Part shown: positions 3,948 through 19,060 of the stretch, one piece after another | How the letters are laid out: each line of letters begins with the position of its first letter | Numbering within the stretch: position 1 is the first letter of the stretch | From: Pseudomonadota bacterium | GTDB taxonomy: Bacteria; Pseudomonadota; Gammaproteobacteria; Steroidobacterales; Steroidobacteraceae | Reading direction: 5' to 3' | DNA length: 64,000 bases | Assembly (NCBI GenBank): GCA_018241505.1 | Contig: JAFEDS010000029.1 | Span: 105,739 to 169,738, forward strand | Translations under genes and position numbers: made by a program | The notes under the pieces: generated by a model | What the model saw: the letters and a program-made list of their open reading frames with translations, nothing else | What the model was told of the DNA's origin: nothing | Database searches by the model: none

Positions 3948-4195
3948 TTGGACGTCAGGCTACCGCCGACCAGGCGCTCGCAGGTGCCCTTCGGCAGCTT
4001 GACGAACTCCTTGGTGCTGCCGTCCTTGGTGGCCTGCCCGGCACACGCGTGCGCAGCGCCGGCGCAGTCGTTCTTGGCCGCTTTCGCGACTCCGTAACAC
4101 TTTTCCGAGTTGGCATCATCGGCGGCGAGTACCGGGCCGGCCAACGCGAACAGGCTGCCGACGGCCGCGATGAGAAGGGTGGTCTTTGAAGTCAT
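3944..4195 (-). CDS. bufA: BufA (DUF2282) bufferin precursor peptide
   Basis: The 83-residue secreted small protein begins with a Sec signal peptide ending near LAGPVLAAD. The mature part has four cysteines in the DUF2282 pattern (EKCYGVAK..KNDC, HACAG, LPKGTCERLVGGS). DUF2282 proteins are the ribosomally made precursors of bufferins, which sequester copper in the periplasm after cysteine modification. It heads the bufA-bufB-bufC-doxX operon, in which three junctions overlap. Upstream lies a clear sigma-54 promoter. Family assignment is strong; the metal bound here is inferred. Confidence 0.92.
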   Translation of the reverse strand: MTSKTTLLIAAVGSLFALAGPVLAADDANSEKCYGVAKAAKNDCAGAAHACAGQATKDGSTKEFVKLPKGTCERLVGGSLTSK

Positions 4196-4265: not shown

Positions 4266-4284
4266 AAAGCAACGGCCGTGCCAA
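4266..4284 (-). promoter_or_regulatory. Sigma-54 (-24/-12) promoter of the bufferin operon
   Basis: On the minus strand the sequence reads TTGGCACGGCCGTTGCTTT. It has the invariant GG and GC separated by exactly ten bases and matches the RpoN consensus TGGCAC-N5-TTGCW fully. The predicted start of transcription is near 4257, giving a leader of about 60 bases before bufA. Two near-identical copies precede the orphan bufA and a 41-residue peptide gene. A perfect GGGCTGC-G-GCAGCCC palindrome at 4355-4369, about 75-90 bases further upstream, is at a distance suited to an enhancer-binding activator, but it is not shared by the other two promoters. Confidence 0.85.
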
Positions 4285-4483
4285 GTGACCAACCCTATGC
4301 AATTCAACGGGTTATGGATCCGACCCGCCCCAACGGACACCGGTCGGCCGTCACGGGCTGCGGCAGCCCACAATCGGTTGAGGGTGTCGGAAACCCGTTG
4401 CCCTGCGGCTCAACCAGGATCCGATTCGCAACCGGGTCGGGTAATCGTAGGCAGGAGAGCCGCGTCCAGGGCAAACTGACCTT

Positions 4484-5755
4484 TCACGGCAACTGCGCGT
4501 TACGCCGCAGGCTGCGGCGGTAACCGAAATGAGAGATGTCGGGCGGAAAGAACATCGCCCAATTCCACTCGAGAAACAGACGCGACTTGCGCGCCAGTGT
4601 CGGAATGCGCAGCAAGTACAGCCCGCGCCACATCAGCCACGCCACGAAACCGGAGATTTTGAGTCCGAACACTTCGGCTACGGCCTTGTTGTGGCCCACC
4701 GAGGACAACTGGCCCTTGGGACGATAGCTGAATGTTGTGGTGGGTTGACCATTCAGGCGGGCGACAATGTTGGCGGCGAGCACCGTAGCTTGCGCATCCG
4801 CGAATTGCGCGGTTGGAGGGGACACTTTGCCGTCCAACGCGTTGATCACGGCCGCGCAATCACCTGCCGCCCAGACTCCGTCCACTCCAGGAACTGACAT
4901 ATCGGCATTGACGACGAGACGGCCGCGAGCCTTTGGCGCAGGAATCTGCTCGAGCAGTGAATTCGGCTGTGTACCGATCGTACAAATGACCGTACCACCA
5001 TTGATGATCTCTCCACCAACCAGCTCGACGCCGCGATCGGTTACGTTGTCAGCCCGCGCGTTCAATCGAACATCGATACCGCGGGCGCGCATCTTTCGGA
5101 CTGTGAAATGTCCCAATTTCGCTGACAATTCCGGCAGGAGTCGCTCGCCACTATGCAGCAACACAATGCGCAAGTCATCGGCCGAAATCCGCCTGTAGTA
5201 ACGCAAGCTGGCGTAAAGGAAATCCGCGAGCTCGCCGGCCGTCTCTACCCCGCTGAAACCACCTCCCACGACTATGAAAGTCGTCAGCCACCGCCTGTGC
5301 ATCCGGTCAGGCTGCAACTCTGCCTGCTCCAAGCGGGCAATGATTCGATTTCGCAAGAACAGGGCATCGCCCAGCGTCTTCAAGGGCAGCGCATAGGATC
5401 CCATTCCCTTGACCACGTCCAGGTTTGCGTTGGTACCGCAGGCCAGCACCAGTTGATCGTAGTGCATGACCCCGGATCCTTCACCCAAGTACTGAATGGT
5501 CCGCGCGCTCGTATCGATTTCCGTTACTTGTGCCATGCAGACGTGGCTGCAGTGAATCATCTGCCGATGTGGCGCAATCACGTGTCCTGGAAGAATCGAA
5601 GCCCCCACGACCTCCGGTAGCAAAGGATTGAACGTGATGAAATTTTCCTGACTCACCAGAGTCAGTGTCCAATCCGGCGGAAGTGTGTGCTCGAGAGCCC
5701 GCGTCACGCGAGTGCCTGCGAACCCACCTCCGACGACCACTAAGTTCTTCAACAT
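4484..5755 (-). CDS. ndh: Type II NADH dehydrogenase (NDH-2), FAD-dependent
   Basis: The 423-residue protein has two dinucleotide-binding folds: VVVGGGFAGTRVTRALE at the N-terminus for FAD and FIVVGGGFSGVETAGEL near residue 160 for NADH. A GVWAAGDCAAV motif closes the FAD site. The C-terminal stretch with LMWRGLYLLRIPTLARKSRLF is the amphipathic membrane-docking region typical of NDH-2. It transfers electrons from NADH to quinone without pumping protons. The ATG is preceded by AGGAG; a longer frame upstream would overlap the VOC gene and is not used. It is the last gene of the long sugar operon, where it could re-oxidise NADH made by the SDR. Confidence 0.9.
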   Translation of the reverse strand: MLKNLVVVGGGFAGTRVTRALEHTLPPDWTLTLVSQENFITFNPLLPEVVGASILPGHVIAPHRQMIHCSHVCMAQVTEIDTSARTIQYLGEGSGVMHYDQLVLACGTNANLDVVKGMGSYALPLKTLGDALFLRNRIIARLEQAELQPDRMHRRWLTTFIVVGGGFSGVETAGELADFLYASLRYYRRISADDLRIVLLHSGERLLPELSAKLGHFTVRKMRARGIDVRLNARADNVTDRGVELVGGEIINGGTVICTIGTQPNSLLEQIPAPKARGRLVVNADMSVPGVDGVWAAGDCAAVINALDGKVSPPTAQFADAQATVLAANIVARLNGQPTTTFSYRPKGQLSSVGHNKAVAEVFGLKISGFVAWLMWRGLYLLRIPTLARKSRLFLEWNWAMFFPPDISHFGYRRSLRRNAQLP

Positions 5756-5766
5756 GAGGTGTTCTC

Positions 5767-6741
5767 CTAGTTTCGAGGTTGGGGAGCGGCGACCGCCAAC
5801 AGGCTTGCGTGGCCGTCCGGGTCGTGAGTGAGCAGCCCCGACGCCCATCCCAAACGACTCTCGTGAAGCTCCCTGAATTCGGGCGATGGAGTTGCGGCGC
5901 GCAGATTGATCTGCCAGTACCACAGATCATCGGCCTGGGTATCCGGCGGCGAGACGCGCCCGGAGCGCGGCGCCAGATATTCGAGGAATTCCACGCCCGG
6001 CCCCTCGGCGGCCCGCAGGCTCGTGATGCGCAGGTGAGCGCCGAACACGTTGTTCAAATGCTCCTGCTCCGTGCCGTAGTTCTCGCTCGTTCCAACCACT
6101 CGCAGCCCGAGAACATCCCGATAGAAATGCAAACTCGCAGCGGTATCAGACACCACAATGGCCGTGTGATCGATGCCAAGAAACAAGTTGCGGTTGCCCT
6201 CGTGCCACTTCGCAAGTCCCTTGCCGGCAGGAAAGGCGAGCACCTCCAGGTAGTGGCCGTCCGGGTCCCGAAAATAGAAGGCCTCGATGCCTCCGGCAGC
6301 GGTATTCCAGTCGGGGAGTCTCTGTGGACCGCTCGAGGCATGCTCCACCTTGAAACTGCGCAGCCGTGAATACGCGGCGCGCATATCGCTGACTACGATC
6401 GCAATGTGCTGAAACCAGCGATCGTTGCTCCGCGAATCAACTGGAAACGGTCGTCCCCGGGGCGCCAGGAATTGAACCAGCTCAATGTACTCATTCCCCA
6501 ACCGCAGCCGCACTGCACGCAGCCTCAATCCGAAAACACCCAGGAGGCGCTCATAGTCTTCTCCTGCAACTTCGCGATCAGCAACCTTTTCGAATGCCAG
6601 CACACGTGTGTAGAAGTCGACAGCCTTCTCCATATCACTTACCGTAAGCGACACGGAGTCCACTGCACTCACGCGTGGTTCGACCGCGTTGCTGTCATGA
6701 ACTAGCAGTGACAACAGAATCGATAACAACAATCTACGCAT
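5767..6741 (-). CDS. Secreted two-domain VOC (glyoxalase/bleomycin-resistance fold) protein
   Basis: The 324-residue protein begins MRRLLLSILLSLLVHDSNA, a plausible signal peptide. Two VOC domains follow (about residues 22-165 and 175-320), with repeats VDSVSLTVSDMEKAVDFYTRVLAFEKV and IDHTAIVVSDTAASLHFYRDVLGLRV, and FRDPDGHYLEVL versus THDPDGHASLL. VOC proteins are metal-dependent lyases, isomerases, dioxygenases or binding proteins, so the reaction cannot be assigned. Its start overlaps the GMC gene by eight bases and its end is 11 bases before ndh. Export is unusual for this fold. Confidence 0.8.
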   Translation of the reverse strand: MRRLLLSILLSLLVHDSNAVEPRVSAVDSVSLTVSDMEKAVDFYTRVLAFEKVADREVAGEDYERLLGVFGLRLRAVRLRLGNEYIELVQFLAPRGRPFPVDSRSNDRWFQHIAIVVSDMRAAYSRLRSFKVEHASSGPQRLPDWNTAAGGIEAFYFRDPDGHYLEVLAFPAGKGLAKWHEGNRNLFLGIDHTAIVVSDTAASLHFYRDVLGLRVVGTSENYGTEQEHLNNVFGAHLRITSLRAAEGPGVEFLEYLAPRSGRVSPPDTQADDLWYWQINLRAATPSPEFRELHESRLGWASGLLTHDPDGHASLLAVAAPQPRN

Positions 6742-8182
6742 GTCTGAATCCCCCCGCGAACTGTTTGGCGACCCGGTCCGCCACACGCAAGCCCCACGCA
6801 TAGATGGTCAGTGACGGGTTTACTCGGCTGGAACGCGGCAGAACGCTTCCGTCGACCACATATAGGCCAGCCATCCCGTGCACTTGCCCATGTCGATCAA
6901 CAACCGAACTGCTTGCATGCTCGCCGCATACGAGCGAGCCGCAGGCGTGAGCCGTACCGTTGAGTCCAATCCGGCGGGTAAACGTCAGAAATCCGGCTTT
7001 GGCGAGAGCCCACTGAAATGCACGCGTGAATGCCTTGTGCTCACGTGCCGCGCTCGGGGTCCGATCTTCGTCGTAGTCGAGTACAGGATGATCCGCCCCA
7101 TTGATCGCGCCGATGACGCGGTTGCGCGGGTCTGATCCGTCTTCGGTTTGAAGGAAGAATCCGTACGATCGTCGACCCACTTGCCGCCGAAGGTATTCGG
7201 GCACGGCCTTGGGTACCAATGTGGCAATCAGCTCCGAATCGAAACCCAGCGGCTGGACACTGGAATGCCCGAATTGCTCGTGCGTGATCACAACCGTCTT
7301 GCGCAGGAGATCGGTCATCGAGCGGCCGGACAGTGCAATCAGGGCGGTCAGTAAATGCAACTTCACGTTACGGCCGATATGCGCTCCAATCGGCAGCAGC
7401 TTGCCGAGCCCTGCGAATTCCAGGTACCGACCGAGGATACGAGGCGAGTGCAATGCTCCAGCGGCAAGAAACACCCGTGGTGCCAGAATCCGGCGTCCAT
7501 CAGTCAACTCGACTCCAACGATGGTTGCCGGCGAGGCGGCATGCCCGAGCAGCGAAAACACCTCGGCGTTCACAGATAAGGTGAAACCGGGATGACCTCT
7601 CAACAACGAAAGAATCGATCCATCGGCCTCACCTTTGAGCCCGGCCACTGAGGCAAATCCATCAAAGTGCGTAGCTTCCACTCGGTCGGCGGTAATGCAG
7701 GGGGCGAGCGATAGAGGAATAGGCTCCACGTCCCACTTACCTTTTAATCTACACAGAATGTCGGCAAGGTTCGGTTCGGTATCAAACAGGCGAACGCCCA
7801 GCAATCGCTCCGCTTCCTGGTAGTAGGGCTCCATGTCGGCCAGTGAGACAGGCCAGCTCGTGCATTGATGGACGGAGTCCGCCTGAAACTCATGCGCGCC
7901 GAAGCGCAGCAGCGCGGCCCCATACCACTTGGTCTTCCCTCCGACATTGAAGTGTTCCTCCGGGCAGACACTACGACCTCGGCCATCCTTCCAGATCTCG
8001 CGGCTGAGGAACTTGCCCTCGTGAACCACACGTTGGATGTCGAGAGTACTGCCGTCGACCGGCAAGTGATCGCCCTTCTCCAACAAGATGACCTTGAGTC
8101 CACCCTGAACCAGGCGATATGCGGTAGCCGCGCCTCCCGCGCCTGAGCCGATGACAATCGCGTCGTACTGAGGCGCGTTCAT
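6734..8182 (-). CDS. GMC family FAD-dependent oxidoreductase (cytoplasmic type)
   Basis: The 482-residue flavoprotein has the Rossmann motif AIVIGSGAGGAATAYRL at the N-terminus, an FAD-contact region (HFNVGGKTKWYGAALLRF), the C-terminal signature LYVVDGSVLPRSSRVNPSLTIYAWG, and the candidate catalytic pair NGTAHACGS and NPSLT. Family members oxidise sugars, polyols, choline or sterols. No signal peptide is visible. It is coupled to the aquaporin gene by ATGA and to the VOC gene by an 8-base overlap. In this operon a sugar or polyol substrate is most likely, but this is inference. Confidence 0.85.
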   Translation of the reverse strand: MNAPQYDAIVIGSGAGGAATAYRLVQGGLKVILLEKGDHLPVDGSTLDIQRVVHEGKFLSREIWKDGRGRSVCPEEHFNVGGKTKWYGAALLRFGAHEFQADSVHQCTSWPVSLADMEPYYQEAERLLGVRLFDTEPNLADILCRLKGKWDVEPIPLSLAPCITADRVEATHFDGFASVAGLKGEADGSILSLLRGHPGFTLSVNAEVFSLLGHAASPATIVGVELTDGRRILAPRVFLAAGALHSPRILGRYLEFAGLGKLLPIGAHIGRNVKLHLLTALIALSGRSMTDLLRKTVVITHEQFGHSSVQPLGFDSELIATLVPKAVPEYLRRQVGRRSYGFFLQTEDGSDPRNRVIGAINGADHPVLDYDEDRTPSAAREHKAFTRAFQWALAKAGFLTFTRRIGLNGTAHACGSLVCGEHASSSVVDRHGQVHGMAGLYVVDGSVLPRSSRVNPSLTIYAWGLRVADRVAKQFAGGFRHA

Positions 8183-8985
8183 GACTTGCTACCCCCAATG
8201 GCAGGGTCGTAGCCGCAGTGGATGCACCGCTGATCATCAGCATGCAGGAGCTTTGCGCATGCCAACCTGCGTACACCGCGAATGGCAAGAAACATCTGTG
8301 CGGCGGTTAGCATGCCAATCAACGGCGCACACACATAAATCCAATAGTAGTCCCATTGCATCGCGGGCGCCGCGGATGCGAACGTGCGTGCGGGATTCAT
8401 GCTCATGCCGGAGAGCGGCGATTCGAAACTGATGTACAGCGCCACGAGCGTGCCGGCCGCAAAGCCCGTCAGCCCCGCGAAGCGCGGCGTGCCCGACAGA
8501 GTCAGAATCACAAACATCAACACGGCTGAGATGATCATCTCAGCCACAAAAGCGACTGCCGCGCCGCCGGTTCCGGGCATGGTCGCGGCGTAGCTCACAG
8601 GAGCGTCGGTAAATGCAGGTCCTAACAGAGAGGCCACCAGAAGCACGCCCGCCGTTCCTCCTGCAAGCTGGGCGATGACATAGAACAGGGCATCCCAGCC
8701 ATGGGTCTTGCCCAACCGCAGGAATGTGAGAGTCACCGCGGGATTCAGATGGGCGCCCGATCGCCTCCCCCACGGGGAGTGGATCAACGCAATTGCGGTG
8801 AGTCCCATCGCGATCCCCGCGACGACATTGCGCAGCAGGGGATCGACCACCATCCTGCTCAGCGACGATGTGGGCGACCCCAGTGCCGTGGCTACGAGCC
8901 CCGCGGCGATCATGAAGGAACCCAGGCCCCAGGCTTCGATGAGATACTCCGGCCAATGAGTGCGTAATGCCTGTAAGGGGGTCAT
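8179..8985 (-). CDS. MIP family channel (aquaporin / glycerol facilitator type)
   Basis: The 268-residue membrane protein has the two half-helix motifs HLNPAVT and SMNPART and about six hydrophobic segments. It passively conducts water, glycerol or other small neutral solutes. An ATG at 8985 is preferred because GGGAGG lies five bases before it and only one base separates it from the SDR stop; an alternative start is at 9003. The C-terminus carries a small CIHCGYDP cysteine motif that is not usual for MIP channels and could bind metal. Position inside a sugar-oxidation operon suggests solute or polyol uptake. Confidence 0.9.
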   Translation of the reverse strand: MTPLQALRTHWPEYLIEAWGLGSFMIAAGLVATALGSPTSSLSRMVVDPLLRNVVAGIAMGLTAIALIHSPWGRRSGAHLNPAVTLTFLRLGKTHGWDALFYVIAQLAGGTAGVLLVASLLGPAFTDAPVSYAATMPGTGGAAVAFVAEMIISAVLMFVILTLSGTPRFAGLTGFAAGTLVALYISFESPLSGMSMNPARTFASAAPAMQWDYYWIYVCAPLIGMLTAAQMFLAIRGVRRLACAKLLHADDQRCIHCGYDPAIGGSKS

Positions 8986-8986
8986 G

Positions 8987-9847
8987 TCAGCCTCCCGTCT
9001 CAAAGCCGGGGTACAGCGTCATACCCCCGTCGACAAACAGGCTGATCCCGTGAACGTAGTCAGCGTAGTCAGACGCCAACCACGTGGCCGCGCGCCCAAT
9101 CTCTTCAGCCTCTCCGATCCGCTTGTACGGAATCAGCTTCATCAGCTCCTGGTACGCCGCGGGCGTATCCCAGGCTTCCATGTTGATCGGCGTCCGTATG
9201 GCGCCCGGACAGATGGAATTGACCCGGATGCGATACGGGGCTACTTCCTGCGCAAGGCTCTTCATCATCAACATCACGCCTCCCTTGGAGGCTGCATAGT
9301 TGACGTGTCCCGCCCATGGAATCACTTCGTGAACCGAGCTGATGCACAGGATCTTGCCGGCCGAGCACGAGACTTCAGGGTTCACACCGCGTCGGCGGAA
9401 CTCCCGGACGGCCTCGCGAGCGCACAGAAACTGGCCCGTCAGATTGACACCCAGTACCCGGTTCCACTGCGCCAGTGTCAATTCGTGAAACGGAGCATCC
9501 TGCTGCAAACCCGCGTTGTTGACGAGGATATCGACAGTACCGAACTCTGCGATCATTGTTGAGAACATGCTCGACACCTGGCGCTCATCCGAAACGTCGG
9601 CCCGGATCGCCATTGCACGAGTTCCCTTCTCGCGCAGTTCCTGCGCGAGCGCCTGAGCCTTGTCCTCGCCTGAAACGTAGTTGATTACGACGTCCGCGCC
9701 TGCATCGGCGAGCGACATTGCAATAGCCCGGCCAATACCGGAACTGGCACCCGTGACGAGTGCCTTTTGGCCGCCCAACAGCTTTTGCGCGGGACAACGG
9801 GGCATGACGGGTTCTGGAAGATGAGCGTAGCGAGCGGGAGCGTTCAT
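8987..9847 (-). CDS. Short-chain dehydrogenase, glucose 1-dehydrogenase-like
   Basis: The 286-residue protein shows the classical SDR features: cofactor motif TGASSGIG near residue 36, VNNAG, catalytic Ser in CISSVHE, and Tyr/Lys in NYAASKGG, with a C-terminal FVDGGMTLYPGF. The closest familiar pattern is glucose 1-dehydrogenase of the Bacillus type, including the roughly 30-residue extension at the N-terminus seen in YghA-like relatives. It would oxidise glucose to glucono-1,5-lactone with NAD(P). The operon also encodes a gluconolactonase-type protein and two glucosidases, which supports this. Substrate is inferred. Confidence 0.88.
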   Translation of the reverse strand: MNAPARYAHLPEPVMPRCPAQKLLGGQKALVTGASSGIGRAIAMSLADAGADVVINYVSGEDKAQALAQELREKGTRAMAIRADVSDERQVSSMFSTMIAEFGTVDILVNNAGLQQDAPFHELTLAQWNRVLGVNLTGQFLCAREAVREFRRRGVNPEVSCSAGKILCISSVHEVIPWAGHVNYAASKGGVMLMMKSLAQEVAPYRIRVNSICPGAIRTPINMEAWDTPAAYQELMKLIPYKRIGEAEEIGRAATWLASDYADYVHGISLFVDGGMTLYPGFETGG

Positions 9848-9867
9848 GGTGAGACCCTCGAGTTGAA

Positions 9868-12522
9868 TCAGGATTTGAGCTCGGTGTGGGCATAGCGGGG
9901 CATCAGTAGTTTCGCGACCAGACCGGTCCAGCCGGTCTGATGCGAGGCGCCGACGCCCCGGCCCGTATCGCCGTGAAAGTATTCGTAGAAGAGCAGGTGA
10001 TCCCGGAAGTGCGGGTCGGTCTGCATGCGGGGGTGGTGCCCGAAAGCCGGCCGGCTGCCGTCGCGATCCGCGAGGAAGATCCGAGTCAGGCGCGCCGCGA
10101 CCTCATTCGCCGCCTCGTTCAAAGAGACGAAATGTCCGGAACCGGTCGGGCACTCGACCTTGAACTCATCGCCATAGTAGTGATGGAATTTTTGCAGCGA
10201 CTCGATGATGAGGAAGTTGACGGGAAACCAGATGGGTCCGCGCCAGTTCGAGTTGCCGCCAAACAGGCCACTATCCGATTCGGCGGGCTGATAGCGCACC
10301 GTCAGGTCCATGCCGTCATGGTTATAGATATAAGGATCGCGCTCGTGCACCCGTGACAGCGCGCGAATGCCGTAGTTCGACAGGAATTCGGTCTCGTCCA
10401 GCATGCGGCGGAGCAAGCGCTTCATGCGATGTCCGCGCAGCAAGGACAGCAGCCGCCGATGACCGCGCCCTTCCTCGTTCCAGTGTGAAACCAAAGCCGC
10501 CAGGTCAGGGCGATATTTCAGGAACCACTCCAAGCGGCGCTTGAAGTCCGGCACCTTATCGAGCAACTCGGGCTCGAGCGTCTCGACCGCGAACAGCGGA
10601 ATGAGACCGACCATCGAGCGAATCTTCAGCGACTGCATGCGCCCGTCGGGAAGATGCAGGACATCGTAGAAGAACTCGTCCTCATCATCCCACAGCCCGA
10701 CACCCAGGCCGTTTTCACCGCCAATGTGATTCATTGCTTCTGCGATGTGCAGAAAGTGCTCAAAGAACTTGGTAGCGATGTCCTCATAAACCCGGTTGCG
10801 CTGCGCCAACTCCAGGGCGATGCGCATCAGGTTCAGGGCGTACATGGCCATCCAACTGGTGCCGTCGGCCTGATCGATGTGGCCACCCGTCGGCAGTTGA
10901 CTGCTGCGATCAAACACCCCGATGTTATCCAGGCCGAGGAATCCTCCCTGAAACACGTTGCGCCCTTCGGCATCCTTGCGATTGACCCACCAGGTGAAAT
11001 TCAGCATCAACTTGTGGAGGATACGTTCGAGGAATTCGAGGTCGCCGTCGCCGCCGCGCTGTTTGCGGTCGATCTGGAACACCCGCCACGCCGCCCAGGC
11101 GTGTACGGGCGGATTGACGTCTCCGAATGCCCATTCGTAGGCCGGCATCTGGCCATTCGGATGCATGTACCACTCGCGAGTCAGTAAAATCAGTTGCTCC
11201 TTGGCGAATGAAGCATCGAGGTGTGCCAGGGGGATGCAATGAAACGCCAGGTCCCAGGCGGCGTACCAGGGATATTCCCACTTGTCCGGCATGGACAGGA
11301 CATCCGCGTTATTGAGATGCAGCCACTCACGGTTGCGGCCGTGGCGCCGGCCATTCGGTGGTGGCGGTTGCGCCGGATCTCCGTTCAACCATTGCGGGAC
11401 GTCGAAATGGAAAAACTGCTTGCTCCAGATCATTCCTGCAAACGCCTGACGCTGGACTCGACACGCGTCCGCACTCTCGATGCCCTTCTGCAGGTCCGCA
11501 TAGAATTCATCGGCTTCGCGGATTCGCCGGTTGAATACCTGCGAGAAGTCAGCGAACGGCTTTGTCAACTCACTGCGCGTCAAGCGCAACCGAAACTCGG
11601 CGCGGCCGTTGACCGGCACTCTCTCGCGGTACCAGACGGCCGCCTTGGTCCCGGTGTGATTCGGATTCACAGCATCGGTCCGGCTGTTGACCACACGCTC
11701 GTGAATCGCATCCTTGGGGTAGGCCGGTCCGGACGGGTCGTTCCAAAGCTTGCTCGTGTTGGTTTCGTTGTCGCAGAACAGGAGATCTTCGGGACGTCCA
11801 TCCGCATACAGAAAGTACGTTCCCAAACCAGCGTGCTCTGCCCTGATCACCTGCGCGCCCGATGAAGTGAGCTCCGGTTTGGTCCGCCCCTCCTTCCAGC
11901 TCCAGGTGTTGCGAAACCAAAGGTGAGGCAGCACGTGAATGTGCGCGGGCTCCGGCCCCCGATTCTGGACGCTCACGCGCATCAGGATGTCGTCCGGGCC
12001 CGCCTGCGCATACTCCACGTACACATCGAAATAGCGGTTGTCCTCAAACAGCCCCGTGTCGATCAGCTCATACTCGGACCGCCCTATGCCCCGACTCCGG
12101 TTCTCCTGCAGCAGATGGCCATACGGGTACTCGCGCTGCGGGTACTTGTAGAGCATCTTCAGATAGGAGTGGCTGGGGGTGGCATCGAGGTAGTAGTAGA
12201 GCTCTTTAACATCCTCTCCGTGATTGCCTTCGCCGTTCGTCAGACCGAACAGCCGCTCTTTCAGGATGGGATCGCACGTGTTCCACACGGCAACGGCAAG
12301 ACAGAGCCGTTGTCGGGAATCGGAGAGTCCGGCAATGCCGTCTTCACCCCAGCGATAAGCTCTGCTGCGGGCGTGGTCGTGTGGGAAGTAATCCCAAGCA
12401 TTCCCATGCGGGCTGTAGTCTTCGCGAACGGTTCCCCATTGACGCTCCGACAGATACGGCCCCCAATTCTTCCATCCGATTGCCGTCTCCAGTCGAGATT
12501 GCTCGACATTCTTATGTGTCAT
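9868..12522 (-). CDS. GH63-type glucosidase (MGH1-like (alpha/alpha)6 hydrolase)
   Basis: The 884-residue protein opens with the conserved block WGPYLSERQWGTVREDYS...WDYFPHDHARSRAYRWGEDG, found in bacterial GH63 'glucosidases'. Later motifs include MPDKWEYPWYAAWDLAFHCIPLAH (catalytic-domain Trp/Asp cluster), EWAFGDVNPPVHAWA, and NSNWRGPIWFPVNFL near the C-terminus. GH63 enzymes hydrolyse terminal alpha-glucosides or glucosylglycerate-type substrates by inversion. No signal peptide, so cytoplasmic. The ATG overlaps the preceding debranching enzyme gene as ATGA; this pair commonly occurs together. Confidence 0.88.
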   Translation of the reverse strand: MTHKNVEQSRLETAIGWKNWGPYLSERQWGTVREDYSPHGNAWDYFPHDHARSRAYRWGEDGIAGLSDSRQRLCLAVAVWNTCDPILKERLFGLTNGEGNHGEDVKELYYYLDATPSHSYLKMLYKYPQREYPYGHLLQENRSRGIGRSEYELIDTGLFEDNRYFDVYVEYAQAGPDDILMRVSVQNRGPEPAHIHVLPHLWFRNTWSWKEGRTKPELTSSGAQVIRAEHAGLGTYFLYADGRPEDLLFCDNETNTSKLWNDPSGPAYPKDAIHERVVNSRTDAVNPNHTGTKAAVWYRERVPVNGRAEFRLRLTRSELTKPFADFSQVFNRRIREADEFYADLQKGIESADACRVQRQAFAGMIWSKQFFHFDVPQWLNGDPAQPPPPNGRRHGRNREWLHLNNADVLSMPDKWEYPWYAAWDLAFHCIPLAHLDASFAKEQLILLTREWYMHPNGQMPAYEWAFGDVNPPVHAWAAWRVFQIDRKQRGGDGDLEFLERILHKLMLNFTWWVNRKDAEGRNVFQGGFLGLDNIGVFDRSSQLPTGGHIDQADGTSWMAMYALNLMRIALELAQRNRVYEDIATKFFEHFLHIAEAMNHIGGENGLGVGLWDDEDEFFYDVLHLPDGRMQSLKIRSMVGLIPLFAVETLEPELLDKVPDFKRRLEWFLKYRPDLAALVSHWNEEGRGHRRLLSLLRGHRMKRLLRRMLDETEFLSNYGIRALSRVHERDPYIYNHDGMDLTVRYQPAESDSGLFGGNSNWRGPIWFPVNFLIIESLQKFHHYYGDEFKVECPTGSGHFVSLNEAANEVAARLTRIFLADRDGSRPAFGHHPRMQTDPHFRDHLLFYEYFHGDTGRGVGASHQTGWTGLVAKLLMPRYAHTELKS

Positions 12523-14480
12523 GATTGCTCACTCAGGTAGTGCCAGGCGCGAAGTGTTTCAGCGACGCTCCAGGCTTGCGCAAAACAACCCCGTGGCGCA
12601 TGCGGTGCGTCGCCATCAAAGATTTCACTGACTGTGCCCAGACACGCATCATCCAGATGAAGTGCGAGGCCTTCGAGGAGGCTCAGAGCCTGCGGCGCAT
12701 TGCGAAAGACGCGATGGTGCGCAAGCGCAAACGGGCCCAGTAGCCAACTCCACACGGTACCTTGGTGATAGACCGCATCCCGCTGCCCCGCGCCTCCGAC
12801 ATACGATCGCGCGTACCTGGAGTCACTGGAAGCAAGGCTTCGCAGCCCCACGGGTGTCAGCAATTCGCGCGCGCATACTTCAACCACAGCACGCTCGTGG
12901 GATGGATCGAGCAAGCCCGTGCCGAGGGAGACGGCGAAAATCTGGTTGGGCCGAAGAGCCGTATCCTTGCCGGGCGCATCCGGTCCACCAATGACGTCGT
13001 ATAGATAACCGCCTTCCTCGAACCAGAAAGCGGCCTGGAACGCCTGTTTGACCCGGTCGGCGGCCGACCCGAAATGGGCAGCGCCAGACGAATCATTCAA
13101 CTCATTCGCCCACTCAGCCATCTTCATGAGCCCAAAGTGCCAAAGCGCGTTGATCTCTACTGCTTTACCGATACGTGGAGTGACGACCCAATCTCCAATC
13201 TTTGCATCCATCCAAGTTAGCTGAACGCCTGTTGCACCTGCTCGCAACAAGCCGTCCGTCGGATCAACCCGGATGCCGTGGCGCGTCCCACGCTCGTGCC
13301 AGTCCACGATCTGCTTCAGTGTCCGGTAGATTTCCCCCAGCAGTGACCGATTCGGGGTGGCATCGAGGTAGGTGGATACGGCATGAAAAAACCACAATGC
13401 CGCATCGACCGTGTTGTACTCGGGCGCCTCGCCACTGTCGGGGAAGCGGTTGGGCAACATCCCCTGATCGGCATGCCGCGCGAACGTGCGCAGAATCTCG
13501 GCCGCATCCTCCAGCCGGCCGGTCGGGATAGTCAGTCCTGGCAGCGCAATCATGGTGTCGCGGCCCCAATCGCTGAACCAGGGATAACCTGCAATGACCG
13601 TCTTCCCGGCGGGCGCTCGATTTACAATGAATTGATCGGCAGCCAATGTGAGTCGTCGGATCCACGACGGCGCCCTTGCAGGAACCGTCTTCAACACCGA
13701 CTCTGTGCGCGTGGAGTGACTGCGCAGGGCTGCTTCGGCAGCCAGCGGCTCACCCGCTTCTGAGGTAGCTATCAAGGTGGCTGTCTCTCCCTGTTTCAAG
13801 GCACAAAGGAAAGTACCCACACTGAGCAAATCTTCGGAATCATCCAGGCCGCGTTGGCCTTCTGCGCGATGCTTGAATCGCCAATACCATTCGGGTTGCA
13901 GCCGGAACTCGCCACGGTCCAGCAGCAGACGATAAGGTCGAGCACCACTGAAGGCTGCAACAGCACATCCTCCCGCTTCGGCGCGAACATCGAGCGACCA
14001 GCCCCCTTGGGCGTGACTGTGATAGTCGCGGTATGTGCACAGCGGATTCAGGTCGAGCCCGATCGCCGTCCCGGCAACCAGAAGACGGAAGCTGACGTAT
14101 GTCGTGTTGCGACCTTCCGCCATCCACAGACGCTGCTCGAGCACCGCGCCTTCGATGACGTAGCGCCATGTTGGAATACCGTCGACAACACGGAAGTTCG
14201 CGAGGAACTGAAAGCCCTGCGGGGCTATCGTGCCGTCGGTAAACTCATTGCAACTGAGCTGGTAGCGCCGCTCACCCAGAGTGACGGTCACGTCTGCTTT
14301 GGCCAACATGACCACCCTGTCTACCGGCGGCCGCAGCGAAGCGGTCAGCCAGCTATGATAGCGTCGTGTATTGGCCTGGGAAATTGTTCCGCAGGCGAAT
14401 CCACCGATGCCATTTGTCACCAGCCATTCCCGTGCGAGTGCATCGGGTTCCTGAGCAATACAAGATCGGGGGAGCGTCAT
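12519..14480 (-). CDS. Amylo-alpha-1,6-glucosidase (GDE-type debranching enzyme)
   Basis: The 653-residue protein has an N-terminal GDE domain (EWLVTNGIGGFACGTISQANTRRYHSWL) and a C-terminal (alpha/alpha)6 barrel with AGYPWFSDWGRDTMIALPGL, RFPDSGEAPEYNTVDAALWF, and the late GTVWSWLLGPFALAH block. Asp and Glu residues in SDWGRD and SEIFDGDAPHAPRGC are the likely catalytic acids of this family. It removes alpha-1,6-linked glucose branches or hydrolyses other glucosides. The ATG at 14480 overlaps the lactonase stop (ATGA) and matches the family N-terminus; a frame extension to 14636 is rejected. Confidence 0.9.
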   Translation of the reverse strand: MTLPRSCIAQEPDALAREWLVTNGIGGFACGTISQANTRRYHSWLTASLRPPVDRVVMLAKADVTVTLGERRYQLSCNEFTDGTIAPQGFQFLANFRVVDGIPTWRYVIEGAVLEQRLWMAEGRNTTYVSFRLLVAGTAIGLDLNPLCTYRDYHSHAQGGWSLDVRAEAGGCAVAAFSGARPYRLLLDRGEFRLQPEWYWRFKHRAEGQRGLDDSEDLLSVGTFLCALKQGETATLIATSEAGEPLAAEAALRSHSTRTESVLKTVPARAPSWIRRLTLAADQFIVNRAPAGKTVIAGYPWFSDWGRDTMIALPGLTIPTGRLEDAAEILRTFARHADQGMLPNRFPDSGEAPEYNTVDAALWFFHAVSTYLDATPNRSLLGEIYRTLKQIVDWHERGTRHGIRVDPTDGLLRAGATGVQLTWMDAKIGDWVVTPRIGKAVEINALWHFGLMKMAEWANELNDSSGAAHFGSAADRVKQAFQAAFWFEEGGYLYDVIGGPDAPGKDTALRPNQIFAVSLGTGLLDPSHERAVVEVCARELLTPVGLRSLASSDSRYARSYVGGAGQRDAVYHQGTVWSWLLGPFALAHHRVFRNAPQALSLLEGLALHLDDACLGTVSEIFDGDAPHAPRGCFAQAWSVAETLRAWHYLSEQS

Positions 14481-16099
14481 GGCCGAATCCCGGGAATCAG
14501 AAGTTGCACTCGGTAGAGCGCGCTTCTTGCGCACAAATACAGCGTTCGGCCGTCTTCTGCGCCCCAGGCGAAGTTGTGGACCGGCTTGGGCGCGCGAATC
14601 GTTCCGAGGTGCTTGCCGGTGGCATCGAATATCCACACACCGCCGGGAGCCGACAGATACAGGTTGCCCCTGACATCGGCCTTCATCCCATCCAGAGCCT
14701 CGTCGCCGGGAATCTGGCGCGTCAGATCAATGAAGACTTCGCCCTTACCCACGCTGCCATCGGGCATGACGCGATAGCGCGTCACTGTCTTTGCAGCGGG
14801 GTCCCAATTGCTCACATAGAGATACTTCTCGTCCGGGGAAAAGGCGATGCCATTTGGACCTTTGAGGTCTTTGGTCAGGAGCTGCAAGTGACCTGACTTC
14901 CAGCGGAAAACGCCGCTGTAAGGCAACTCCCTGCGAGGGTCGTCGAAGAACTTGGGCAATCCAAAGGGCGGATCCGTGAAGTACAGCGAGCCGTCCGACT
15001 TGTAGACCAGATCATTTGGGCTGTTGAGACGCTTCCCCTCGAATGAGGCGGCCAGTACGGTCAGCGAGCCATCGCGCTCGAGCCGGGTGACTCTATGACG
15101 GCCGTGCTCGTTGATTGTCAGCCGCCCTTCTCGGTCCAATGTCAGCCCGTTTGAACCGGGTTGACCGTATTCCGCAATATCGGCGCCGTCATAACCGCTC
15201 TTCTCGCGGAACACGGCGAGCGGCTTGCCTTCTGTATATTGGTAGATGGTGTTGTGATTGGGATCGCTGAAGAGCAACGCCTGTTGTTGGCGAATCCAGA
15301 TCGGCCCCTCGGTGAACTGGAAGCCCTCAGCCACTTTGAACAGCTTCGCGTTGGCGGGCACAATGGCTTCTATGGCGGGGTCGTCGCGCTCCACCGCGAT
15401 GTTGACTTCGTGGGGTGAGACAGCAACCGGAGACTCGCTGCCGGGCAGGAACTGCAGCTTCGCTTCATGTATGAATATATAGTTGGTGGGCGCATCGGAA
15501 ATCGGCCCATTCATCCCGAAGACGGCCAATTGGATGTGCTGGCCGGGCTGGGCATCCCTGGCAATCAGCACACGATTGGGTGCGTTCCAGCCGGCGACTA
15601 CGGAGCCGCCGCTTTGACCGAACTGCCGCCCAATTTCGCCGTCCACCCACACTTCGGCATAGTCGTCCAAGCGGGTCTCGAACCAAACTGAAGATCCCTT
15701 TGTGTCAATTCCGCCCACGCTGTCGGGCAGCGTCAGGTTGATCCGGTACCAATTAAAGGAGACACGGCCTGTGCCCCGGCGCGCGGCGAGGGAAGTCGGT
15801 TCGATCGTTTGCCAATGCGAGTCATCGAAGTCGGCTGGACCCGCGTGTGGTTCGATGTCATTGGTTGTCCGCTCACGCCCGGTCGGTTGTCCTGCGGCGT
15901 CAGGCGCGCGGAAGGCGGTCTCGACGATTCGCGCGTCGGAGTATCTCCACGAGCCCTTTACCGCAGCGATACCGGAATCAGTTGCAAGGTCGACCGTGGC
16001 GAGCGGCGTTGTCATCGATTCGTGGTCGCTCACAGTTCCAGCCAGCGCCGGCGCCATGACGGCAATACTCAACAGGAGTTGGATCGCCAGGGATCTCAT
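14477..16099 (-). CDS. Secreted SMP-30/gluconolactonase-like protein with N-terminal jelly-roll domain
   Basis: The 540-residue protein has a signal peptide (MRSLAIQLLLSIAVMAPALAG). Residues about 35-220 form a beta-galactosidase-like carbohydrate-binding module (FNWYRINLTLPDSVGG, VWFETRLDDYAEVWVDGEIG). Residues about 245-540 form the SMP-30 six-blade propeller, with FTEGPIWIRQQQALLFSDP, GSNGLTLDREGRLTINEHG, LNSPNDLVYKSDGSLYFTDPPFG and GPNGIAFSPDEKYLYVSNWD carrying the metal ligands. Family members hydrolyse sugar lactones. Here it is presumably periplasmic. Overlaps its neighbours as ATGA on both sides. Confidence 0.88.
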   Translation of the reverse strand: MRSLAIQLLLSIAVMAPALAGTVSDHESMTTPLATVDLATDSGIAAVKGSWRYSDARIVETAFRAPDAAGQPTGRERTTNDIEPHAGPADFDDSHWQTIEPTSLAARRGTGRVSFNWYRINLTLPDSVGGIDTKGSSVWFETRLDDYAEVWVDGEIGRQFGQSGGSVVAGWNAPNRVLIARDAQPGQHIQLAVFGMNGPISDAPTNYIFIHEAKLQFLPGSESPVAVSPHEVNIAVERDDPAIEAIVPANAKLFKVAEGFQFTEGPIWIRQQQALLFSDPNHNTIYQYTEGKPLAVFREKSGYDGADIAEYGQPGSNGLTLDREGRLTINEHGRHRVTRLERDGSLTVLAASFEGKRLNSPNDLVYKSDGSLYFTDPPFGLPKFFDDPRRELPYSGVFRWKSGHLQLLTKDLKGPNGIAFSPDEKYLYVSNWDPAAKTVTRYRVMPDGSVGKGEVFIDLTRQIPGDEALDGMKADVRGNLYLSAPGGVWIFDATGKHLGTIRAPKPVHNFAWGAEDGRTLYLCARSALYRVQLLIPGIRP

Positions 16100-16977
16100 G
16101 ACTGCGTTTCACCTGATGACTTGATGACGTAGTAGCGGAAAGGCGCGTGAACCACCTTGAACCAGTGGGGGACTCCATTTGGGATTGTCATCACGTCGCC
16201 TTTAACGAGCTTCTGCTCGGTGCCTCCTTCGATTTCTCTACCCCGAATTTCGCCGGGCGACTGTTCATGTGGTTCAACAACTCGCCCACCGGTGACGACA
16301 GTCGCGGTGCCTTCGAGCACATAGAGAATGTCCGTATCGGCGAGATGGACCTCCGCCTCGCCCGATCCTTCGCGTCTGCTTGCGTTGACACTGAATCCGG
16401 GGCCTGTCGCAACCGTGCTGCCCGTAGTGCCGGCCGAATACGCATTGGTCACCGCAGCCGCGGGTACGTGATTCACCTTTGCCGTGGAGTGGTTTGCATC
16501 GATGGCCGCAGCGCCTGCCATCGCGACCTCTTCATCCTGTTGGGCACTCGAGGCACCACTCACACCGATTCCACCGACGATCTGGCCCGCCGCGACAATA
16601 GGCACACCACCCTGAAGCGGTGTAAACCAGGTGACGGCGGCCACATCGACCATCGCGGTCCGCCCTTTGTTGATACCCTCTTCGATGCCGCGAGTTGGCC
16701 GCTTGAATACAACCGCTGTGCGTGCCTTTCCAACAGAGATGTCACTTCCCGCTGAAAAGGTGCCGTCGAGCCGCTCGACATAGATCGTATGCCCACCCGC
16801 ATCCACCACCGCGATGGAAGCGCCCGGGGCGTTGTGTGTCCTCGCGAACTCCACTGCCGCGGCTGCCACGCGCTTAGCCCCCTCCAGAGTCAAAGAAGGC
16901 TGATTCACAATGTCAGCACCGAGCGCCACATGAGAGGCGATGAGAGTGAACAGACCCACAGCTAAAGACGATCTCAT
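16096..16977 (-). CDS. Secreted GlcG/HbpS-like domain fused to a cupin domain
   Basis: The 293-residue protein has a signal peptide (MRSSLAVGLFTLIASHVALGAD). Residues about 28-165 form a GlcG/HbpS (DUF336) domain: LTLEGAKRVAAAAVEFAR, SIAVVDAGGHTIYVERLDG and a GGIGVSGASSAQQDEEVA tail. Residues about 190-290 form a cupin with DILYVLEGTATVVTGG, GDVMTIPNGVPHWFKV and a YYVIK end. GlcG-type proteins bind heme or small molecules; cupins bind metals and often act on sugars. The fusion could sense or isomerise a periplasmic product. The ATG at 16977 is used because it overlaps the previous stop and begins the signal peptide. Confidence 0.83.
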   Translation of the reverse strand: MRSSLAVGLFTLIASHVALGADIVNQPSLTLEGAKRVAAAAVEFARTHNAPGASIAVVDAGGHTIYVERLDGTFSAGSDISVGKARTAVVFKRPTRGIEEGINKGRTAMVDVAAVTWFTPLQGGVPIVAAGQIVGGIGVSGASSAQQDEEVAMAGAAAIDANHSTAKVNHVPAAAVTNAYSAGTTGSTVATGPGFSVNASRREGSGEAEVHLADTDILYVLEGTATVVTGGRVVEPHEQSPGEIRGREIEGGTEQKLVKGDVMTIPNGVPHWFKVVHAPFRYYVIKSSGETQS

Positions 16978-17972
16978 GGCGTGCTCCCCAAATTGGCTGG
17001 CCCAAGACGGGCATGTTGCGCGGCAAGGTTGATGAAGGCCGGCGGCCGCGCGGCACCCGACGGCAGTCGCGAGTGCATATGGGTTCGCGAGCTCAATCGT
17101 TCGAGCCTGCGCAAAGTCTCGCCAAGCCGCTTGGGTGTACCGAGGTCCGACCATCCGCATAGCGGTGCGGCGACGACACTCAGCGACTGCTCGGAGCCCT
17201 GTGTAATCGCGCTCGAGAAGTCGATTGACGGCAAAGTGGCGTACATCTCACGCAGCGCTCGAGCAGAGTCCGCGCGCGCCAGGGCAGTCGCCATGGCCTC
17301 GACGCTGTCAGGCATCCTGCGGCGGAATATCCCCAGCAGAGACGGACCATCCGCCGCAAAAATGAAGCTATTCCACAGTGCTCCAGCACAGAGCAGCTCC
17401 CTGGCCCGGGCCGGGTCGGGCTTCTCTACGAAGCGCAACACCGCGTACGTGTCGGCGGCCAGCATCCGGCCAGGCACGATGTAACCGAGATCCGGATCCG
17501 GTTCCTCCGGTTCGATGCCGACCATCGCCAGTCCGCGTGCTTCGTTTCCTACACGGGTGACGGCAGTGCGGGCTGCACTGGCCAAAGCGCTTTCATCACG
17601 CACATGGTGATCGGCAGGCAGGAACAAAATTCGCGCGAACGGATCGCGCGCAAGGATTGCCAGAACGGCAAGCAAAATTCCGTGGGCGGTACCGCAATTG
17701 GTCGGTTGCACGAGGGTGTTGGCTTCGCGCATCGCCCAGCGCATCCGCGCCCAGTAGCGGCGATGCTGATCGGAAACCATCACGTAAACCCGTTCGGCAG
17801 GCACAACCTTGGAGGCGCGGGAGACGGCTTCCTCGAGCAGCGATCGGCCGCCATCGAGGGAGCAAAATTGTTTTGGCACCGCATTGCCGGCGGGATCGGT
17901 GGTGAGCGTGGCGAGCCGAGTGCCATCGCCTGCGGCGAGCACGACGGCCCAGGTATTTCGGCACGCTCTCAT
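16974..17972 (-). CDS. Mannose-1-phosphate guanylyltransferase-like nucleotidyltransferase
   Basis: The 332-residue protein carries the nucleotide-sugar pyrophosphorylase signature VVLAAGDGTRLATLT...VPKQFC, the metal-site region LFLPADHHV, PDLGYIVPG, and FVEKPDPARARELL. It lacks the C-terminal isomerase domain of bifunctional ManC, so it makes only the GDP-mannose step if it is active on mannose-1-phosphate. A start at 17972 keeps the canonical N-terminus and overlaps the preceding small ORF (ATGA); its own end overlaps the GlcG-cupin gene. Its presence in an otherwise catabolic operon is unexpected. Confidence 0.85.
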   Translation of the reverse strand: MRACRNTWAVVLAAGDGTRLATLTTDPAGNAVPKQFCSLDGGRSLLEEAVSRASKVVPAERVYVMVSDQHRRYWARMRWAMREANTLVQPTNCGTAHGILLAVLAILARDPFARILFLPADHHVRDESALASAARTAVTRVGNEARGLAMVGIEPEEPDPDLGYIVPGRMLAADTYAVLRFVEKPDPARARELLCAGALWNSFIFAADGPSLLGIFRRRMPDSVEAMATALARADSARALREMYATLPSIDFSSAITQGSEQSLSVVAAPLCGWSDLGTPKRLGETLRRLERLSSRTHMHSRLPSGAARPPAFINLAAQHARLGPANLGSTP

Positions 17973-18166
17973 TGCAGCCGCCCTTGGGATGCGCGTCCCG
18001 AGCGATGCCAGGAAATCCCCCGCGCCCCGCGAGTCAACCAATGCTCATGCAACGTCGTCAGATCGTGCGGCAGGTTCGCTGGCGGCCAGCTCTTGTGGGT
18101 TGGCACAGTCACAATCAATGCCTGTTCACGATAGGTATCGATGGGTCGATCCGGCTCATTTTTCAC
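17969..18166 (-). CDS. Small hypothetical protein, first gene of the sugar operon
   Basis: This 65-residue frame begins MKNEPDRPIDTYREQALIVTV from a GTG with AAGGGAG about eight bases upstream; the same frame stays open to a weaker GTG at 18214. The product is basic and His/Trp-rich (HDLTTLHEHWLTRGARG), without a signal peptide or membrane span. Its stop overlaps the guanylyltransferase ATG as ATGA, exactly like most junctions downstream, and codon use looks coding. I recognise no family. It could be a regulator or leader peptide, or a small enzyme subunit. Confidence 0.55.
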   Translation of the reverse strand: MKNEPDRPIDTYREQALIVTVPTHKSWPPANLPHDLTTLHEHWLTRGARGISWHRSGRASQGRLQ

Positions 18167-18232
18167 GGCTGCGGCTCCCTTCGGCGACAGCGTGTTCAGG
18201 CGTTTGCCAGACACACTGTCGCCGAATTGAAT

Positions 18233-18517
18233 TTACTGTTTGGGTGTTGGATCCTTGACGTTGACGACACGTCCGCCGGAAAGCCGTTCGCAGGTTCCCT
18301 TCGGCAGGTAAACCCAGGCTTCCGCGCTCGAGTCGGCGGTCGCATGCCCATGACAGGCATTCGTGCTGGTGGCACAGTCGTTCTTGCCGGCCTTGACGAT
18401 GCCCGCACACTGCTCCTTGCCATCCTCGGCGGCGAGGACCGTGCCTGCGACCGCGAGGCTGGAAAAAGCCAACACGCCGGCGATGACGGCGCGAATTTTC
18501 GAATCATGTTGTGACAT
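18233..18517 (-). CDS. Second, orphan BufA (DUF2282) bufferin precursor paralogue
   Basis: The 94-residue protein has a signal peptide (MSQHDSKIRAVIAGVLAFSSLAVAGTVLAAED) and the DUF2282 pattern with four cysteines: EQCAGIVKAGKNDC, NACHGHATAD and LPKGTCERLSGG. The spacing and the KNDC and LPKGTCERL.GG motifs match the BufA of the operon at 4 kb. No DUF692 or DUF2063 gene is next to it, so modification would have to come from the distant bufB-bufC. It ends 66 bases before the first sugar-operon ORF. A sigma-54 promoter precedes it. A start further upstream (frame open to 18670) would destroy the signal peptide and cross the promoter. Confidence 0.88.
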   Translation of the reverse strand: MSQHDSKIRAVIAGVLAFSSLAVAGTVLAAEDGKEQCAGIVKAGKNDCATSTNACHGHATADSSAEAWVYLPKGTCERLSGGRVVNVKDPTPKQ

Positions 18518-18571
18518 TGAATGCTCCACGAGTTGGATGTTGCGACGATGCGCGTCGCCCGCGGCGTACCT

Positions 18572-18590
18572 AAAGCAACGCTTGTGCCAA
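18572..18590 (-). promoter_or_regulatory. Sigma-54 (-24/-12) promoter of the orphan bufA
   Basis: Reads TTGGCACAAGCGTTGCTTT on the minus strand, a full match to TGGCAC-N5-TTGCW with ten bases between GG and GC. Predicted transcription start is near 18563, leaving a leader of about 46 bases. Upstream at 18699-18714 lies a perfect inverted repeat, CCGCAA-TGGG-TTGCGG, at an enhancer-like distance of about 110 bases. Confidence 0.83.
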
Positions 18591-18858
18591 ACAACCGAAG
18601 GTAAGCCAAAAATCTTGTAACTCCTTGAGCTATCTGGATCTTTGTCTATCTGCAGGAGAATCAGGCGCACTGCGCTGATACCCGCGAGGAGGCCAGCGCC
18701 GCAATGGGTTGCGGCTGCTGACAGCGGGTTACGGGCGCGTACAGTCAGAAGTTAGTCAGACCAGGGCGGGCGCAATGGCCCGAGCGAATTGGGTCAAAAG
18801 GCGCGCAGGCCATACATCGGCGGCAGGGGCACCGGGGGTGTTGAACTTGCGGGTCGCG
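18591..18858. other. Intergenic region upstream of the orphan bufA
   Basis: No convincing gene. A plus-strand frame starting at 18709 runs through here but looks non-coding, being rich in Arg, Ser and His and crossing a gene on the other strand. The region would hold any enhancer for the sigma-54 promoter; the clearest candidate is the 6-base-arm inverted repeat at 18699-18714. Confidence 0.4.
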
Positions 18859-18984
18859 TCAGCGTCCACGAACCTCGGACCGGGACTCAAATGCCGCATG
18901 CAGCCCGATGGCCAGCAATATCGGCGCGGCAATCAGAAACAGTACAGGTGTGATGATGAATGTTCGTATCAATACCCAGGCCAT
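18859..18984 (-). CDS. 41-residue single-pass membrane peptide under a sigma-54 promoter
   Basis: The predicted peptide starts MAWVLIRTFIITPVLFLIAA, continues with a second hydrophobic stretch (PILLAIGLHAAF) and ends in a charged tail (ESRSEVRGR), so it has one long membrane span. The ATG is preceded by GGGGAGA at about seven bases. A sigma-54 promoter lies 58-76 bases upstream of the ATG, with the same sequence and distance as for the two bufA genes. No known family was recognised. It may assist bufferin export, anchoring or signalling; this is inferred only from the shared promoter. Confidence 0.65.
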   Translation of the reverse strand: MAWVLIRTFIITPVLFLIAAPILLAIGLHAAFESRSEVRGR

Positions 18985-19041
18985 GATCGCTCTCCCCATC
19001 GGGGCGGCCTCGCCCATCGAGCCCGCCGGTTGATAACAGCG

Positions 19042-19060
19042 AAAGCAACGGACATGCCAA
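19042..19060 (-). promoter_or_regulatory. Sigma-54 (-24/-12) promoter of the 41-residue membrane peptide gene
   Basis: Reads TTGGCATGTCCGTTGCTTT on the minus strand. GG and GC are ten bases apart and all conserved positions match, with one C-to-T change at the end of the -24 box. Predicted transcription start is near 19033. An inverted repeat CGCTGA-CCG-TCAGCG lies at 19161-19175, about 105 bases upstream. Confidence 0.8.

Follow-up and report, generated by a model that had tools for sequence, protein, structure and literature searches.

Analysis of a 64,000-nucleotide stretch of a Steroidobacteraceae genome (assembly GCA_018241505.1; the whole stretch is referred to as the window) points to a dedicated two-component/RpoN system that very likely co-induces two bufferins, a glucan/glucose-oxidation module, an EF-hand protein and a 41-amino-acid peptide as one small regulon. 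Bufferins are recently recognised, widespread copper-chelating ribosomally synthesised and post-translationally modified peptides (RiPPs), the control of which has either been attributed to extracytoplasmic function (ECF) sigma factors or not been settled. The cluster described here contains consensus sigma-54 promoters, tandem dyads upstream of them, and a histidine kinase gene adjoining that of an RpoN enhancer-binding protein (EBP), both with intact domains. The genome has two rpoN genes, and in relatives homologues of the EBP and promoters of this type occur together. From these features, all of them read from the sequence, we infer RpoN-dependent transcription and co-transcription within a regulon, and they lend support to the proposal of a first-pass annotation that one activator serves a shared RpoN regulon.

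Sigma-54 promoters and tandem dyads

The first-pass annotation had described three near-identical sigma-54 promoters, and perfect -24/-12 elements are indeed present at all three positions (P1, P2 and P3 in Table 1), with the consensus TTGGCAY-N3-CGTTGCTTT. The distance of exactly ten bases between GG and GC had been given correctly; the spacer had not, as it comprises three bases rather than four, and the literal N4 pattern, with up to three mismatches allowed, matches none of the three sites. P1, P2 and P3 each have 0 mismatches, while the shuffle expectation for the window at three or fewer mismatches is 0.91 hits. The promoters conform to the sigma-54 form TGGCAC-N5-TTGCW with GG-N10-GC, P3 carrying TGGCAT, and about 70, 54 and 57 bases separate them from the start codons of the first bufA (bufA1), the second bufA and the 41-amino-acid open reading frame (ORF), respectively. 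The three sites are real, but the count was too low, since one more element of this type is located 2.1 kb to the left of the window, in the adjoining stretch L007, which together with the window covers 84 kb.

A genome-wide scan for the 18-mer TGGCAYN5TTGCTTT, as the annotation had suggested, returned six matches in the 7.88-Mb genome (46 contigs; 93.9% complete, 5.67% contamination) and none for the reversed-pattern control; four of the six reside inside a single 21-kb cluster (C21:103658-124797). The shorter pattern TGGCAYN5TTGCW has 27 genomic matches against 8 for its reversed control, and two of the 23 other sites precede genes for products that, judged by eye, are type IV pilin-like and flagellar rod-like. 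As type IV pilin and flagellar rod genes are classical RpoN targets, this suggests that the sigma-54 consensus is valid in this genome.

All four promoters are preceded by two consecutive 16-bp dyads of the form CCGCAACnnGTTGCGG in a 19-20-bp register, the pairs spanning about -145 to -53 as counted from the first base of TGGCAY. The pair scores at the four promoters are 22-26 of 28; the 23 remaining TGGCAYN5TTGCW sites have a maximum of 17, and 3907 random windows drawn from the 84-kb stretch one of 19. A degenerate pair pattern derived from the four sites matches those four places only in the whole genome, with 0 matches for the reversed control. One CCGCAACnnGTTGCGG-type dyad by itself was discarded as a signal, as it gave 157 matches with up to two mismatches versus 169 for the reversed control, so that the tandem arrangement alone is informative. 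Eighteen sigma-54 sites in relatives were scored for such pairs, eight in the five loci nearest by EBP or dyad and ten others. The eight belong to genomes that had no part in the motif definition, and the values were p 0.005 in L080, 0.006 and 0.019 in L081, 0.007 and 0.09 in L078, 0.048 in L079, and 0.008 and 0.20 in L105, six of the eight having p < 0.05. With a mixed outcome across relatives as a whole (see below), the dyads at all four promoters can be regarded as candidate upstream sites for an EBP.

Genes behind the promoters

The first gene run comprises bufABC-doxX, followed on the same strand by the kinase and EBP genes, which overlap by 4 bp. The bufA1 product is a predicted class 1 bufferin precursor (BufA1), with DUF2282, four Cys and cognate MNIO and DUF2063 genes adjoining. 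Placement of either BufA of the window in the BufA2 family (NF050166) was rejected at 25.8 and 27.7 bits (cut-off 60), and the label 'bufA2' in Table 1 denotes the second copy only. The EBP has the domains of an RpoN enhancer-binding response regulator, with D53 in REC and the motifs GETGTGKE and GAFTGA; its Fis-type HTH scores 21.2 bits for HTH_8, slightly below the 22-bit cut-off. It was not accepted as an equivalog of ZraR, AtoC, NtrC or PrsR (363/760, 405/714, 398/558.6 and 331.3/502.6 bits, score/NCBIfam cut-off). The adjoining kinase has HisKA and HATPase domains, and its first GAF match starts at residue 27, which leaves scant space for a preceding membrane anchor, so that a cytosolic signal is likely.

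The second bufA, which had been called an orphan, is more appropriately described as probably heading a 12-gene operon, the products of which would break down glucan and oxidise glucose. Eleven genes follow it, the first 18 bp behind; measured from longest-ORF starts, the intergenic distances range from -160 to +20 bp. The predicted products include an NTP transferase, an HbpS/cupin protein, a gluconolactonase-like protein, an amylo-1,6-glucosidase, a GH63/MGH1-like glucosidase, an SDR, an aquaglyceroporin, a GMC oxidoreductase, a glyoxalase and an NDH-2-like dehydrogenase. The small ORF directly behind the second bufA (TRGARGISWHR) has matches in the same position in L080 and L059 (32 and 41% identity, tblastn). 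The second bufA product has DUF2282 and four Cys, and there is no cognate MNIO or DUF2063 gene in its own run; according to PMC12452194, many bufferin precursor genes stand apart from MNIO genes.

The remaining two promoters precede the 41-amino-acid ORF and the EF-hand gene. An assignment of the EF-hand protein to lanmodulin was rejected (35.6 bits, where the cut-off is 135). The description of the targets as metallophore-related fits the two bufA genes only and is too broad for the set, because this includes the EF-hand protein and the glucan/glucose-oxidation operon, as well as the 41-amino-acid ORF with no known metal link. A putative secreted protein of 126 amino acids with no Pfam family is encoded near the P3 dyads on the opposite strand (19368-19748, +).

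Table 1. Positions of promoters, dyads and genes; numbers refer to the window unless prefixed L007 (the stretch to its left).
Feature	Position	Strand	Remarks
P1, sigma-54 -24/-12 promoter before bufA1	4266..4284	-	exact match; TTGGCACGGCCGTTGCTTT
P2, sigma-54 promoter before second bufA	18572..18590	-	exact match; TTGGCACAAGCGTTGCTTT
P3, sigma-54 promoter before 41-aa ORF	19042..19060	-	exact match; TTGGCATGTCCGTTGCTTT
Fourth promoter, same type	L007:17920-17937 (window -2080)		precedes EF-hand gene
Tandem 16-bp dyads upstream of P1	4348..4383	-	20-bp register
Further, weaker dyad upstream of P1	4388-4403	-	
Tandem dyads upstream of P2	18699..18734	-	
Tandem dyads upstream of P3	19167..19201	-	19-bp register
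bufA1, DUF2282 bufferin precursor	3944..4195	-	83 aa, 4 Cys; PF10048 77.6 bits, cut-off 22.4
bufB, MNIO maturase	3054..3947	-	PF05114; NCBIfam MNIO_BufB 387.5, cut-off 310
bufC, DUF2063 partner	2288..3142	-	PF09836; real start probably downstream of 3142
doxX (bufD-like)	1794..2291	-	PF07681
GAF-GAF-HisKA-HATPase histidine kinase, N-terminal part in window	1..1736	-	ends at window -414
EBP, REC-AAA+-HTH	window -1961..-411 = L007:18039-19589		516 aa
Second bufA ('bufA2'), DUF2282 bufferin precursor	18233..18517	-	94 aa, 4 Cys; PF10048 75.1 bits
Small ORF (TRGARGISWHR)	17969..18214	-	between second bufA and NTP transferase; no Pfam family
Probable rest of second bufA's operon	4484..18041	-	domain matches
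41-aa hydrophobic ORF	18859..18984	-	good ribosome-binding site by eye; no Pfam family
EF-hand protein gene	L007:17469-17876		~45 bases behind fourth promoter; signal sequence by eye

Promoter and activator in related genomes

The association of promoter and EBP was examined in two sets of relatives. The first comprised 246 related genomes, 74 of them with DUF2282; of 86 places, 82 were examined, the four omitted being two in the window itself, a weak match and a fragment at a contig end. An EBP homologue was counted at ≥45% identity over ≥250 residues within the ±6-kb stretch, some upstream regions being clipped by contig ends, and a sigma-54 site at 10/11 or better. Such a site precedes bufA in 4/4 genes (3 genomes) with the EBP versus 0/78 without. 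The second, named set consisted of 79 loci (best 80 of 558 relatives), in which the site was sought within 250 bp of bufA; two of its 95 bufA genes were left out because they start <100 bases from a contig end (L096, L116). Here the site was found in 9/18 genes with the EBP versus 1/75 without (Fisher p 4.6e-7). Three genomes are common to the two sets (L078=L060, L079=L059, L080=L058), and the p value is 2.6e-4 when the genes common to the first set are removed.

The closest complete system is L081, where the order is bufABC-doxX, kinase, EBP, second bufA and sugar operon. In the EBP tree, the EBPs of the window, L058 and L081, which represent the REC type, group as a supported trio; those of L059, L060, L098, L102, L111 and L116 contain GAF and PAS domains but lack REC. 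A single origin of the bufferin-associated EBPs was considered and is not supported: they are clustered (3 changes versus 11.8 in shuffles), yet they do not form one clade.

Several further loci deserve mention. In Competibacteraceae-type bufferin loci (L116:4678-7205, L123:4746-7403 and L135:13334-18257), the EBP is of the GAF-PAS type and there are sigma-54 sites in front of genes for small secreted proteins or other genes; in some loci of this type a CGATATATCG-like dyad is situated ~100-155 bp upstream of the sigma-54 sites. A protoglobin-domain gene follows bufABC-doxX at L116:2616-3203, and by eye similar proteins are encoded in L123 and L135. One genome (G066; L061, L062 and L075) has several EBPs with ~47-51% identity to that of the window and no bufA match in the stretches covered.

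The genome under study also contains a third bufA (L187:10145-10303; L187 = G000:C46:616000-635900), with bufB, bufC and doxX matches behind it and no sigma-54 site of ≥10/11 upstream. GH63 and SDR genes that are 76 and 82% identical to their window counterparts are located 4-8 kb from this C46 bufA, and the bufferin-sugar link would accordingly be independent of RpoN; given the genome contamination of 5.67%, the origin of the C46 contig is uncertain. The link to sugar oxidation is seen again in a distant groundwater genome (L105:9901-18885), where a sigma-54 site is followed on one strand by matches to bufA, doxX, SDR, GMC, GDE and GH63, with an EBP immediately upstream.

Proposed circuit, alternatives and known systems

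We propose that the GAF-GAF histidine kinase, which is probably cytosolic, phosphorylates the adjoining REC-AAA+-HTH EBP, the HTH of which may bind the tandem CCGCAAC-nn-GTTGCGG dyads and thereby open RpoN polymerase at the four promoters. One unit would consist of bufABC-doxX and probably the kinase and EBP genes, resulting in positive feedback; another of the second bufA and the glucan-degradation/glucose-oxidation operon, with the NDH-2-like dehydrogenase gene last; the secreted EF-hand protein and the 41-amino-acid membrane peptide would be the third and fourth. BufB probably matures both bufferins, which would then chelate copper in the periplasm during expression of the sugar operon. The sugar genes suggest that bufferins belong to a wider scheme in which glucan is broken down and glucose oxidised, perhaps as a copper guard on an envelope redox change. 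As kinase, activator, dyads, promoters and targets all reside within ~21 kb, the hypothesis is directly testable, and the regulon members indicate a physiological partner, sugar oxidation, that is invisible from the bufABC operon alone.

It is improbable that the RpoN promoters are real and answer to another EBP from elsewhere in the genome, the adjoining kinase and EBP being bystanders. The genome does encode several EBPs (at least nine matches at E≤1e-60, with 15 of 171 candidates scored), but the dyad pairs are confined to this cluster genome-wide, the fourth promoter lies directly after the EBP gene, and in relatives the promoter before bufA accompanies homologues of this very EBP. Still harder to sustain is the view that the -24/-12 matches are fortuitous or a relic and that sigma-70 or ECF promoters drive bufA, on the pattern of the bufferin operons described so far. 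In its favour, sigma genes and NrsF anti-sigma genes have been reported in Buf1 clusters (PMC12452194), the C46 buf operon has no sigma-54 site of ≥10/11 upstream of bufA, and the same holds for 78 of the 82 bufA genes examined in relatives. It is nevertheless very unlikely, because the 21-kb cluster has four exact promoter copies, each with matched dyads, and counterparts exist in several genomes.

A dedicated two-component/RpoN regulon would also be compatible with a different purpose, namely a role in carbohydrate or stress metabolism (mobilising glucan and oxidising glucose to gluconate), with bufferins as accessories and copper not the inducer. We regard this as a serious, if not quite the favoured, possibility. 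The probable operon behind P2 has a single bufferin gene among its 12, the sensor domains of the kinase are GAF domains, and SDR, GMC, GDE and/or GH63 genes again accompany buf genes and EBP in the distant loci L105, L123 and L135, as they do in part near the RpoN-free C46 buf operon; on the other hand, the EBP gene follows the bufABC-doxX run, and in Competibacteraceae loci the EBP stays beside the buf genes. Copper or redox stress as the inducing signal is rather doubtful; otherwise the signal may be carbon starvation or stationary phase.

A number of points weigh against the proposed regulon. The dyad consensus was derived from the same four sites, so that its fit and uniqueness within the genome are partly circular, and independent evidence for the motif rests with the relatives only. 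Among these, the ten sites with more distant EBPs (in L098, L102, L111, L116, L123 and L135) show a window-type pair at p<0.05 in two cases (0.032, 0.048) and not in the other eight; together with the good p values in the nearest loci, this marks the window-type dyad as a property of the nearer systems. A CGATATATCG-like dyad, the consensus of which was picked by eye from the same ten sites, precedes four of them at p<0.05 (0.020, 0.022, 0.020, 0.048). The number of relatives is small and they are not independent, the three EBP-bearing genomes of the first set were found via the EBP, with stretches chosen around it, and ±6-kb stretches could miss remote EBPs such as that of L058 at 6.8 kb. Nine of the 18 EBP-linked bufA genes in the named set have no good site within 250 bp: two in Azohydromonas, where the EBP is clipped by the locus end, and one each in L098, where a site lies 256 bp upstream, and in L097, L112, L113, L123, L131 and L135, which are Competibacteraceae or similar. 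In L123, L135 and L116 (the last outside the count), good sites are located in front of genes for small secreted proteins or other genes, and L113 and L131 have one good site each, behind the EBP gene; the L097 and L112 loci have no good sigma-54 site at all. Constraining the bufferin-associated EBPs to one clade gave p 0.037 in the approximately unbiased (AU) test, with long branches. Neither the 41-amino-acid ORF (tblastn) nor the EF-hand protein has a match in the relatives compared, and no sequence feature marks copper as the signal, which is a guess.

More broadly, it might be speculated that an RpoN-activator lineage works with bufferins across Gammaproteobacteria (Steroidobacteraceae, Competibacteraceae and others), swaps its sensory front end (REC with a GAF kinase, or GAF-PAS fused to AAA+) and couples a copper-chelating RiPP to glucan-to-gluconate oxidation in one stress programme, a generalisation that we find almost evenly balanced, with doubt slightly ahead.

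Among the papers listed in searches of a literature collection with few subscription titles, none pairs a bufferin term with RpoN, sigma-54 or enhancer-binding protein. The RpoN route to bufferins would be a new form of regulation of a known RiPP system, and the circuit itself is of a known kind. In enterobacteria, ZraS-ZraR-ZraP combines a two-component kinase and an RpoN EBP in the control of a periplasmic metal-binding protein; the present system similarly has a kinase, an RpoN EBP and a predicted periplasmic metal-binding product, but differs in its GAF-GAF kinase and in a metallophore RiPP in place of ZraP. The PEP-CTERM pair PrsK/PrsR, a kinase and an RpoN response regulator driving secreted products, is alike in layout, whereas the EBP described here scores below the PrsR cut-off. 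The GIG operons of Legionella and Cupriavidus, which respond to gold and copper, likewise have a bufferin-type gene set. For that of Legionella, an influence of RpoS has been described, and rpoN or sigma-54 does not occur in the accessible part of the source text on GIG operons (PMC5413113). ECF-linked class 1 operons, represented by the SigF-NrsF system of Caulobacter (PMC3511200) and by Buf1 clusters (PMC12452194), share with the locus a DUF2282 precursor, the MNIO protein BufB, the DUF2063 protein BufC and DoxX in one run. Unlike such operons, the cluster described here has RpoN promoters, dyads and a kinase/EBP pair, and a second bufA at the head of a sugar-oxidation operon; no gene for a sigma-70-type factor or an anti-sigma factor was found among the genes scanned at the locus. 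The targets of Caulobacter SigF are reportedly bufferin genes.

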